Below are positions 12,630-16,322 of a stretch of 47,954 bases of DNA, piece by piece. Source of the stretch: Hymenobacteraceae bacterium (GTDB lineage: Bacteria; Bacteroidota; Bacteroidia; Cytophagales; Flexibacteraceae); the NCBI GenBank assembly GCA_947459175.1, contig CANHCT010000005.1:1-47954 (forward strand), in the 5' to 3' direction. The translations under genes and the position numbers were made by a program. The notes under the pieces are model-generated. The model was not told the origin of the DNA and made no database searches. It worked only from the letters and a program-made list of their open reading frames with translations. How positions within the stretch are numbered: position 1 is the first letter of the stretch; the number at the start of each line of letters is the position of its first letter.

Positions 12630-14441
12630 TCAGAAGTCTTCGTTATCAGAATCATAGGTCGAGTCGGCTTCTTCCTTGCCCCCTGGCTGTACGGTACAGG
12701 TCAGGCATTTCAGGCCTTTTTCGGTGTACATCCATGTATTTCCCTCTATTTGGCTGGCCTCATAGCCGTAGGGATACAAAGTATTTTGTAAAATTTCGGC
12801 CAGTTCCATGCTCATGGTAAAAGGTTGATTATACGGGATATAGAGGTCCATTTCCAGTCTTTGGGCCCTGTATGGGGTATTGGGTTCAGCCCTCATCATG
12901 GCATCGAATATCAGGCTGGAATCCTGTTGCACTACATCATATTTCACCATTCCGGCATTGGCCTGGGCTTCTTTGTAGGTTGTGCCCTGTGCCTCAAACT
13001 TTCTGTTGAGTTGGAAATAGTTTTCTTTCCACCCGTGCAGTTCCAGTTCTACTGGATATATTTTACCCTCCCGGTTCCCACCTCCTTCTGTCCGCAACAG
13101 GCTCACCAGTTTGTGGGGCATGGCATAGGTTTGCTGCATGGTGAAGCTTCCTTCAGAAGAAAATTTATGCGCCAATGGGCTGATGAAATAGAAAGAGCCA
13201 ATCAAGCCCACAAAAAATATGGCTGTAAATGCCAGAAATACAAGGGGTTTGAACAAATTTCGGTTGAAAATCAGGCTTAGGGAAATGAGCAGAATCACCA
13301 GAACGGGAACCAGTGCGGTGATGCCGGCGAAAACAATCATCCAATGGGTTATTTCGCTGGTAATGAGATCTAAAGGAAAATCGCCTGTCTGGATGAGGTA
13401 GACTTCCGGATCCAGAAATCCAAGTGAGGCACCGGCCAAAACGAAAAGAGCAAACAACAGGATTCCTCCGGTGAAGAGCAGAATAATGGCCAGAAAAATC
13501 CTTACAGCATCAAAAATAAACCGCACTATCGGCCCGAGGGCCTCTGCAATCAGGCTCATGAGTTTTAAGGGGAATGATAATACCTTAACTGCCATATTCT
13601 GTGTTTGCGGGTTCTCAATCTTCAGATTTTTCTTAATCTGGTCTTCGATGGTATTCAGGGTAATCGGATTGCCCTCCATCTGGATTTCGTCTGTAACCGA
13701 TTTGGCTGATGGGGTGATGGCCCAGAGAATGATGTAGGCAATAAGACCTGCACCACCGGCAAACAGAGTCAGTAGAAAAATGATGCGTATAATGGTGGGG
13801 TCGATATTGAGGTATGTGCCTATTCCTCCGGCTACTCCGCTGACCACCTGATTCTTGCGGCTTCGAAAAAACTTCCGGTACCGGATTTTTCCCTGGTCGG
13901 GATTGGCCCGGCCCGGCATGGCAATCCACAGAACCAGATAGCTGATAAACAGGAAAACAGCCATGGCCGGCAGGAGGAAAAATCCAAAGAACAAGGCCAC
14001 AAAAGCCAGCCTCAGCCAAAGGGGATTGATTTCAAAATAAGCTGCAATTCCGGCCAGTACTCCGGCCAGCACAGCGTTGGTTTTGTCGCGGAACAATTTC
14101 TTTTGTCCCTCGCCTGTGGCTTCTTCGGCATCGGTTGCCGAAAATGCGCTTTGCTCTTCTTCAGGTGTTCCGGTGTTTTCGCCGGTCATGTCCGACACCG
14201 TTCCCATCTGCTTTACCAGGGCCTGCACATCTTCCAGAGTTATGGCCTGCTTATATTCGGATATGCGGTCAGAAAATATTTCGGCAATCCGGGCTTCGAT
14301 GTCTGCCATGGTTTCTGCCCCTCCATCGATGCTGTTGAAGTAGGTTCTGATGGAAGAAATGTACTGCTGAAGTACCCCGAAGGCATCTTCTTCAATGTGA
14401 AAAACAACCCCCGAGAGGTTGATGGTGATGGTCTTTTTCAT
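12630..14441 (-). CDS. Membrane protein with two PspC domains
   Basis: A 603-residue inner-membrane protein. Residues about 1-110 are soluble (SGVVFHIEEDAFGVLQQYI, IEARIAEIFSDRI), a module common at the N-terminus of PspC proteins in Bacteroidota. PspC domain 1 spans about 115-175 (TNAVLAGVLAGIAAYFEINP, then YLVLWIAMPG). PspC domain 2 spans about 188-250 (QVVSGVAGGIGTYLNIDP, then AYIILWAITPS). Four or so further membrane segments follow to about residue 430, then a soluble C-terminal region of about 160 residues. PspC proteins are linked to envelope stress responses. The gene overlaps padR by four bases (ATGA), so the regulator and its presumed target are translationally coupled. Confidence 0.88.
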   Translation of the reverse strand: MKKTITINLSGVVFHIEEDAFGVLQQYISSIRTYFNSIDGGAETMADIEARIAEIFSDRISEYKQAITLEDVQALVKQMGTVSDMTGENTGTPEEEQSAFSATDAEEATGEGQKKLFRDKTNAVLAGVLAGIAAYFEINPLWLRLAFVALFFGFFLLPAMAVFLFISYLVLWIAMPGRANPDQGKIRYRKFFRSRKNQVVSGVAGGIGTYLNIDPTIIRIIFLLTLFAGGAGLIAYIILWAITPSAKSVTDEIQMEGNPITLNTIEDQIKKNLKIENPQTQNMAVKVLSFPLKLMSLIAEALGPIVRFIFDAVRIFLAIILLFTGGILLFALFVLAGASLGFLDPEVYLIQTGDFPLDLITSEITHWMIVFAGITALVPVLVILLISLSLIFNRNLFKPLVFLAFTAIFFVGLIGSFYFISPLAHKFSSEGSFTMQQTYAMPHKLVSLLRTEGGGNREGKIYPVELELHGWKENYFQLNRKFEAQGTTYKEAQANAGMVKYDVVQQDSSLIFDAMMRAEPNTPYRAQRLEMDLYIPYNQPFTMSMELAEILQNTLYPYGYEASQIEGNTWMYTEKGLKCLTCTVQPGGKEEADSTYDSDNEDF

Positions 14442-14809
14442 TGTTTTTCAGTTGGAAGGTTGGAAAATTGAGAAAGAGTCTGCGTTTTGTTCATGATTTG
14501 GCTCACCGAAGCTACGAGTTCGAGCCAGGTACTGTCGAGTTCATTGAGAAACAGGCGGCCGCTTTCTGTGAGCATATAGTACTTGCGCGGCGGTCCCGAA
14601 GGCGATTCTACCCATTTGTAATCCAGGAATCCTGAATTTTTGAGGCGGGTAAGCAGGGGATACAGGGTTCCTTCCACCACCATCATTTTGGCCCCGGTAA
14701 GTTCCGAGATCATGTCTGAGGCGTAAACTTCGCCCCGGGAGATGATGTTGAGGATGCACAATTCCAGTATTCCCTTTCTGAGCTGTACCTGAATGTTGTC
14801 TGTGTTCAT
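14438..14809 (-). CDS. PadR-family transcriptional regulator
   Basis: A 123-residue winged-helix repressor. The family pattern is complete: an opening helix (RKGILELCILNII), the turn segment GEVYASDMISEL, the recognition region EGTLYPLLTRLKNSGFLDYKW, the wing PPRKYYMLTESGRLFL and a C-terminal dimerisation helix. It is the first gene of padR-pspC-small exported protein and overlaps pspC by four bases. The TGTAT-N6-ATACA inverted repeat over its own -33 element is a likely operator, so autorepression is probable. The inducer is unknown; the pairing with PspC suggests a membrane-stress signal (inference). Confidence 0.9.
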   Translation of the reverse strand: MNTDNIQVQLRKGILELCILNIISRGEVYASDMISELTGAKMMVVEGTLYPLLTRLKNSGFLDYKWVESPSGPPRKYYMLTESGRLFLNELDSTWLELVASVSQIMNKTQTLSQFSNLPTEKQ

Positions 14810-15134: not shown

Positions 15135-15178
15135 TGCGGAGAATAATCTGCTTATTCTCCGCAAATTTGCGGAGAATA
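15135..15178. promoter_or_regulatory. Three-half-site palindromic operator in front of fic
   Basis: The element TGCGGAGAATA occurs three times in alternating orientation: plus at 15135-15145, minus at 15153-15163 and plus at 15168-15178. Copies 1 and 2 form 12-bp perfect arms (15135-15146 and 15152-15163) with a 5-base spacer. Copies 2 and 3 form a perfect 26-base palindrome (15153-15178) with no spacer. It ends six bases before the -7 box of fic. It could also fold as a hairpin, but position and symmetry favour a protein-binding site. Confidence 0.7.
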
Positions 15179-15183
15179 GAGAT

Positions 15184-15191
15184 TATATTTG
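15184..15191 (+). promoter_or_regulatory. -7 promoter box of fic
   Basis: TATATTTG followed by CGGCA matches TAnnTTTG exactly. A TTTG at 15166-15169 inside the palindrome is the only nearby -33 candidate, at a short 14-base distance. Transcription would start near 15198, which excludes the TTG at 15189 as the translation start. Confidence 0.5.
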
Positions 15192-15212
15192 CGGCAGCAT
15201 CGCCTTCAGACA

Positions 15213-16322
15213 GTGGCAAAGTACATTTACGAAAATAAGGACTGGACGAATTTCAGGTGGCGGGATGCCGACATCAATGGCGTTTTCGGAGAAGTGCGGT
15301 ACCTACAGGGTAGTATCCTCGGACAGATGAGCACACTGGGCTTCGCTGCCCGGGAGGAGGTAACGCTTAACACCTTAACCCTCGATGTCGTTAAATCCTC
15401 TGAAATTGAAGGAGAAAAACTGGACTACAATCAGGTTCGGTCATCCCTCGCAAGGCGGTTGGGAATCAACATGGCTGGCTTGGTTACAGCAGGAAGACAT
15501 GTGGAAGGGATTGTGGAGATGATGCTCGATGCTTCCCGGAATTACCGGGAGCCGCTTACTGAAAAACGCCTGTTTGGATGGCATTCAGCGCTTTTTCCTG
15601 CGGGGCACAGCGGCATCCATAAAATCGAAACCGGGCAATACCGGACGGGAGAGATGCAAATTGTATCAGGTGCTTTGGGAAAAGAAAAGGTGCATAATGA
15701 AGCCGTGCCTGCAGCCAGGGTGCAGGAAGAAATGGACAGATTTTTAAGTTGGTTTAACGAAAACCAACAAATCGACCCTGTACTGAAATCCGCTATCGCC
15801 CATTTCTGGTTTATCATCATCCACCCCTTTGACGATGGCAACGGCAGAATGGTAAGGGCCATCTCCGATTTAATGCTTGCCCGGGCCGATGGAACAAGCG
15901 AACGGTATTACAGCATGTCAAACCAGATATTGGTGGAACGAAAGCAGTATTACCAGATTTTGCAGAAGGTTCAGCACAGCAGGGATGATATTACCGAATG
16001 GTTGCTCTGGTTTTTGCATTGCCTCAAAAATTCACTTTTGGCCACCGAAGAAACCCTGCAAAAAGTTTTAAGAAAGACCGCTTTCTGGAAAATCCACGAA
16101 AACAGCGGAATCAACCCAAGGCAAAGACTGATTCTGAACAAGCTTTTTGACGGATTTGAAGGAAAACTGAAATCTTCCAAATGGGCAAAAATTGCAGGAT
16201 GTTCTCCTGATACAGCATTGAGAGACATTAAAGATCTGATAGAAAAAGGAATTTTACGGCAGGAGCAGCAAGGCGGAAGAAGCACAAACTACGACCTTTG
16301 TAAATTCTTATGTCAAAAGTGA
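15213..16322 (+). CDS. Fic-family protein AMP-transferase (DUF4172-Fic-wHTH)
   Basis: Fic proteins attach AMP or related groups to target hydroxyls. I place the start at GTG 15213 (MAKYIYENKDWTNFRW), giving 369 residues. A TTG at 15189 adds eight residues but lies inside the likely -7 box. Residues 1-80 match DUF4172 and contain the inhibitory motif Ser62-xxx-Glu66-Gly67 (SSEIEG), making this a class II, self-inhibited Fic. The catalytic motif HPFDDGNGR is intact at 204-212, with His204. The C-terminal 70 residues form a winged helix (WAKIAGCSPDTALRDIKDL), so the protein may also bind DNA. It converges on rpoB across a shared terminator. It looks like a stand-alone gene with an elaborate operator. 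Confidence 0.9.
   Translation: MAKYIYENKDWTNFRWRDADINGVFGEVRYLQGSILGQMSTLGFAAREEVTLNTLTLDVVKSSEIEGEKLDYNQVRSSLARRLGINMAGLVTAGRHVEGIVEMMLDASRNYREPLTEKRLFGWHSALFPAGHSGIHKIETGQYRTGEMQIVSGALGKEKVHNEAVPAARVQEEMDRFLSWFNENQQIDPVLKSAIAHFWFIIIHPFDDGNGRMVRAISDLMLARADGTSERYYSMSNQILVERKQYYQILQKVQHSRDDITEWLLWFLHCLKNSLLATEETLQKVLRKTAFWKIHENSGINPRQRLILNKLFDGFEGKLKSSKWAKIAGCSPDTALRDIKDLIEKGILRQEQQGGRSTNYDLCKFLCQK

Follow-up and report, generated by a model that had tools for sequence, protein, structure and literature searches.

A rigid array of inverted half-sites upstream of DUF4172-fic genes is a putative autorepression operator

The window, i.e., the whole stretch of 47,954 nucleotides that was analysed, carries a fic gene (Table 1) whose product combines a DUF4172 domain, a Fic domain matched by PF02661, and a winged helix-turn-helix (wHTH). 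The gene is flanked by a convergent rpoB and by a divergent PadR/PspC pair; no separate antitoxin gene adjoins it, and no small partner was found among the listed neighbours. Residues E66 and G67 of the inhibitory motif are invariant in 22 diverse members of the family. The AlphaFold2 model of the protein has a pLDDT of 90.8, and its best fold match is CbFic2 from Coxiella burnetii (PDB 8CIL), with a TM-score of 0.87–0.90 and 40% identity by fold alignment. The window protein shows the features of the DUF4172-Fic-wHTH (CbFic2) family, i.e., DUF4172, the motifs HPFx[D/E]GNGR and [S/T]xxxE[G/N], and a C-terminal wHTH together with the 8CIL fold; the winged helix that the initial annotation had noticed at the C-terminus of Fic is present in the model and in the fold match to CbFic2.

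Table 1. Features of the fic locus in the window
Feature	Position	Strand	Remarks
PadR-family regulator, then membrane protein (PspC-like by eye)	12630–14809	-	divergent from fic
Half-site A	15135–15145	+	TGCGGAGAATA, exact; canonical site A of the family array
Half-site B	15153–15163	-	TATTCTCCGCA (TGCGGAGAATA inverted, exact); starts 18 bp past the start of A
Half-site C	15168–15178	+	TGCGGAGAATA, exact; starts 15 bp past the start of B
Half-site D	15186–15196	-	TATTTGCGGCA, degenerate, 8/11 matches; starts 18 bp past the start of C (canonical spacing)
Dyad I (A+B)	15135–15163		29 bp, 0 mismatches
Dyad II (C+D)	15168–15196		29 bp, 2 mismatches; 33 bp after dyad I
Perfect 26-bp palindrome from B+C	15153–15178		arms of 13
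-7 element, Bacteroidota type	15184–15191	+	TATATTTG, largely within half-site D; fits TAnnTTTG
fic gene	15213–16322	+	GTG start, 369 aa, DUF4172 + Fic + C-terminal wHTH
DUF4172 domain	15222–15467	+	N-terminal; PF13776, E 1.7e-29
Inhibitory motif SSEIEG, residues 62–67	15396–15413	+	class II Fic; aligns with TSAIEG of CbFic2
Fic motif HPFDDGNGR, residues 204–212	15822–15848	+	intact
C-terminal winged helix-turn-helix, residues 300–362	16110–16298	+	alignment, AlphaFold2 model, fold match to 8CIL
Recognition helix, residues 332–344	16206–16244	+	PDTALRDIKDLIE; AlphaFold2 model; 332, 333, 336 and 337 co-vary with the half-site

The region upstream of fic holds four half-sites of 11 bp in alternating orientation. 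Three of them are exact and had been recognized previously, as had the perfect 26-base palindrome and a second 12-bp dyad (15135–15146/15152–15163) that has one arm in common with it; all these elements were recovered. The three-half-site operator of the initial annotation is therefore right as far as the exact sites go, but it overlooked the fourth site, D, which is degenerate and lies at the canonical spacing. In relatives, half-site D is mostly TATTTGCCGCA or TATTTACCGCA, and the window copy differs by one base from the TATATTTGCCGCA of relatives; of the window sites, A and B are closer to the consensus than D. The predicted operator consists of two 29-bp dyads in tandem, offset by 33 bp. 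The palindrome is the only one in the window with arms of at least 8, and its arm of 13 compares with a longest arm of 11 and a median of 8 in 20 dinucleotide shuffles of the window. Likewise, a template-free score of the four-site geometry was 58 in the window, and none of 1100 shuffled upstream regions scored above 46. When the 3-Mb genome was scanned for the 29-bp dyad with up to 3 mismatches, only dyads I and II were found, both at fic, and only dyad I had no mismatch. The same genome gave no sign of a regulon, with no further dyad up to that limit and 3 further single copies of the TGCGGAGAATA 11-mer, which is about the number expected by chance (1.4 by our own estimate, for 3 Mb and both strands).

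Bacteroidota promoters read by sigma-ABfr have a -7 element of the form TAnnTTTG and a -33 element, TTG or TTTG, at 19–23 bp. Six bases were originally thought to separate the end of the array from a -7 box; the box exists, but the gap between the third half-site and TATATTTG is five bases, and most of the box falls within half-site D. Inspection by eye gave no clear -33 element, the TTTG at 15166–15169 (at the start of half-site C) being only 14 bp upstream of the -7 element. Among the 51 loci with all four sites, TATATT or TATAAT occurs at the edge of site D in 32 and at the edge of site B in 2, and the fifth base of site D drifts from C to T in 59% of them, a drift that is explained by the requirement of the -7 box for T. 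The distance from the start of site D to the start codon is 26–27 nt in the commonest cases of the family and 27 nt in the window. The array starts 78 nt upstream of the GTG at 15213, and the modal offsets of the family are -78 and -77; since close relatives also have a GTG start at the same place, GTG 15213 is most likely the start codon of fic.

The conservation of the array was followed in loci taken from whole genomes at the level of phylum, class and order, from a scan of 85,000 species genomes, and from further stretches chosen by place, which together provided 275 usable, non-identical upstream regions. With a loose half-site template (TGNNNNGANTA, in which T, G, G, A, T and A are fixed), the same dyad at the exact 18-bp spacing was found in 225 of the 275 regions, versus 1/275 shuffled regions, 0/274 stretches inside the gene and 3/261 downstream, so that the element does recur upstream of DUF4172-Fic genes elsewhere, a check that the initial annotation had itself proposed. 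At least three sites were present in 250/275 regions with this template, and approximately 18% of the regions lack the canonical dyad. Inverted pairs of at least 10/12, searched without a template, occur in 81% of the upstream regions versus 9.8% of the shuffles and 19% of the regions downstream of genes. The steps between successive sites are rigid, with 351 steps of +18- and 269 of -15/16+. Two or more sites were detected in 14 phyla (80 loci of named species records), although this is a looser count given that the template can yield two sites by chance. In a held-out set, the dyad was found in 42 of 50 non-redundant loci from viral-contig records; IMG/VR contigs carrying relatives were used for the held-out loci only. 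The strict four-site geometry, scored without a template, exceeds the 99th percentile of the shuffles in only 49% of the loci, because several groups use three or five to six sites, or have a degenerate site. The array is part of a family-wide system. The gene family itself is patchy (48 of 396 genomes of the phylum) and is found on at least 433 plasmid records, and therefore DUF4172-fic behaves as an accessory gene; phage records gave just two distant partial matches. At locus L288 an exact dyad (1501–1529) lies 38 bp downstream of the fic gene, besides the upstream sites.

The half-site is not the same at all loci, and in the alignment its classes follow the recognition helix of the Fic protein. 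When the 369 columns of the protein were ranked by APC-corrected mutual information with half-site bases 2–6, P332 and L336 came first and second in the group-1 proteins, and P332, L336 and D333 occupied the first three positions in the whole set. Among the loci with four or more sites D333 is first and is followed by non-helix columns; this blurred ranking reflects a deep split between subfamilies, so that the argument is carried by direct tables of residues against bases, made from 147 loci with at least four sites. In these tables, residue 333 and base 3 agree in 146/146 loci (D333 with C3 in 118/118, A333 with A3 in 26/26, and M333 with T3 in 2/2). Residue 337 pairs with base 2 (R337 with G2 in 141/143, N337 with T2 in 4/4), although the statistics of base 2 lean on the site template, which prefers G there, whereas bases 3–6 are free of it. 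K332 goes with C6 in 27/27, Q332 and P332 mostly with A6, and T332, S332 and N332 mostly with T6. The R337N change (N337) is confined to a single clade, and A333 nearly so. In the held-out loci, residue 333 predicted base 3 correctly in 41/41 (36 by majority rule) and residue 332 predicted base 5 in 39/42 (37 by majority rule); the rule for base 6 generalises weakly, residue 332 being right in 19/42 versus 11 for the majority rule.

On a tree built from the rest of the protein, parsimony indicated that His332 arose about four times; H332 occurs with T5 in 4/4 loci versus 2/158 of the others (Fisher p 5e-7, a value that ignores relatedness). A comparison of neighbour pairs in the phylogeny across all protein columns gave a weak ranking, as expected from the few independent changes; P332 was the best column for base 5, with 7/7 changes, and its p of 0.002 among 2534 tests is not significant alone. 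Sign tests on supported branches were underpowered. Nevertheless, the co-variation of the half-site letters with residues 332, 333, 336 and 337 indicates that the wHTH of Fic is the likely reader of the half-sites, and it supports the earlier proposal that Fic may bind here and control its own gene.

The closest functional precedent is CccR from Yersinia pseudotuberculosis, a Fic-wHTH toxin and autorepressor for which binding and repression were demonstrated by footprint, EMSA, ITC, mutants and lacZ fusions (PMC9755527). Both proteins are Fic enzymes with a C-terminal HTH, and both genes have inverted half-sites at their own promoter, near -35 and -10 in the case of CccR and overlapping the promoter in the window. 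The CccR site, however, is one pair of 10-bp boxes, AGATAATCAT-N26-ATGATAATCT, whereas the array described here has four 11-bp half-sites with 18/15/18 spacing; a site of the CccR type was not found in the window, which has TGCGGAGAATA-N7-TATTCTCCGCA, repeated after 33 bp, and the half-site sequence differs. CccR is also a T6SS effector, with a reported low sequence similarity to CbFic2 (PMC9755527).

CbFic2 (CBU_0822) is the nearest relative of known structure; it binds DNA via its wHTH and dimerises through its N-terminal domain (PMC10628234). It shares with the window Fic the DUF4172-Fic-wHTH order, the class II inhibitory motif and the fold. The coupling of AMP transfer to DNA binding has been published for this protein, in work that used random DNA only, the specific sequence being still to be found in 2023 (PMC10628234). 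The recognition helix reads SRTTAYREL in CbFic2 and SPDTALRDI in the window Fic, and therefore the half-site of CbFic2 should differ from that of the window. The Fic proteins of loci L379 and L380 have the helix SRATAYRE, which resembles SRTTAYRE of CbFic2, and their half-site, TGAAGCGATTA, is a lead for the CbFic2 site.

SoFic-type proteins (Fic_N, PF13784) also have Fic fused to a C-terminal wHTH, and inverted half-sites lie upstream of the sampled genes; they differ in that DUF4172 is absent by Pfam and in that both word and geometry change from locus to locus. In SoFic-type genes of the same order (L399–L428), inverted pairs of at least 11/12 were found in 62% versus 10% of the shuffles. 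DNA binding by SoFic is reported as not demonstrated (PMC10628234). The fact that each of these loci carries its own word suggests that private operators may be common among Fic-wHTH proteins. In type II toxin-antitoxin systems such as phd-doc, a toxin of the Fic/Doc fold is controlled via operator palindromes; the window locus differs in that the enzyme and the putative DNA binder are one protein. Autoregulation by HTH domains fused to Fic was suspected already in 2009 (PMC2686095).

The array is very probably an autorepression operator of the adjacent Fic. In the proposed mechanism, Fic dimers would grip pairs of inverted half-sites, spaced 18 bp from start to start, through their C-terminal wHTHs, and bases 2–6 of TGCGGAGAATA would be read by residues 332–337, at the N-terminal end of the recognition helix. 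The two dyads stand in tandem at 33 bp, i.e., about three helical turns. Autorepression is the likely outcome of Fic on the array given that dyad II occludes the -7 box; Fic bound there would deny RNA polymerase access, and the repression would keep Fic at a low level. The comparison with CbFic2 suggests that a dimer on the operator may be in a deAMPylating or silent state, which would link the level of the enzyme to its activity. What the sequences show is the array with its geometry, conservation, promoter overlap, uniqueness in the genome and co-variation with the helix; that Fic binds there, that its dimers pair the half-sites, that the gene is repressed and that catalysis is coupled to this are inferences.

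It could also be proposed that Fic binds the array but mainly activates its gene, or that it does both, as an activator at low level with dyad I filled first and as a repressor at high level. The two dyads are separately placed, only dyad II overlaps the -7 box, and in the window sites A and B are nearer to the consensus than D, all of which would suit activation; nevertheless, all arrays extend into the promoter or in the direction of the start codon, and CccR, the Fic-wHTH relative that has been tested, represses (PMC9755527), which makes activation unlikely. Much less probable is control of fic through binding of the array by another transcription factor, such as the PadR protein encoded next door or some global regulator. 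The PadR-family gene does adjoin fic divergently, and PadR proteins also bind inverted repeats; however, PadR and PspC are missing at all other sampled fic loci (many of these flanks cover just 1–2.5 kb), and PadR was discarded as the regulator on this ground. A factor other than Fic is also at odds with a dyad that occurs only at fic in its own genome, with half-site letters that track the recognition helix of Fic, and with an array that accompanies fic through 14 phyla.

Still more remote is a reading of the palindromes as a REP- or MITE-like mobile repeat, or as a hairpin or terminator in the RNA. Arrays away from fic (L297, L301, L302, L303, L306 and L316) are what a mobile repeat might leave, but in the own genome the array is present in just one place, its position is fixed relative to the start codon and the -7 box, its letter changes co-vary with the Fic protein, and one such orphan, at L291, retains a remnant of the fic wHTH, which suggests scars of gene loss; as for a hairpin, transcription is expected to start downstream of most of the array, so that this part would be outside the RNA. 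As for a palindrome arisen by chance, single 11-mers do recur, but the statistics of the window and the family contradict this reading and conservation refutes it, so that its probability is practically negligible.

Autorepression by a Fic-wHTH protein was already known from CccR; what is new here is the array with its rigid spacing, how widely it is spread, and the recognition code. No description of the array was found in the open-access literature searched (subscription journals were outside the search). The array provides a defined candidate DNA ligand for the DUF4172 family, whose specific site was open in the study of CbFic2; the residue-to-base predictions make swapping experiments direct, and they offer a way to predict the operators of Fic-wHTH genes from sequence. 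Autorepression would also suggest why solitary Fic enzymes persist without an antitoxin gene, their expression being capped by the enzyme itself. More tentatively, and with a likelihood well below that of the operator itself, DUF4172-Fic proteins might be one-gene, self-titrating AMPylation switches in which Fic would use the array as its site of repression and also as an allosteric ligand: with rising amounts of Fic, dimers would form on the array, the gene would be turned off and catalysis would flip from AMPylation to deAMPylation, while the residue-to-base code would prevent cross-regulation of co-resident Fics, a logic that could extend, with private words, to other Fic-wHTH families.

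Canonical arrays were also found away from any DUF4172-fic, at L291 (1374–1528) and, near position 1500, at L297, L301, L302, L303, L306 and L316. Most of these orphan arrays are in genomes without DUF4172-fic, and the L291 genome has fic elsewhere. At L291 the remnant of the fic wHTH lies beside the dyad, and on account of this fragment the orphan arrays probably mark places from which a fic gene has been lost. L291 also contains (approx. 1600–1690) another kind of Fic gene, in which the wHTH is N-terminal; upstream of it a word of its own, TGAGCGATAA, recurs in both orientations. The genome of the window has two further Fic genes of the Fic_N type (C129:5130-5366 and C195:3594-3839); since several Fic-wHTH proteins thus coexist in it, distinct operators would be needed. 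Three of the orphan arrays (L291, L301 and L306) lie shortly downstream of AbiEii-like nucleotidyltransferase genes.
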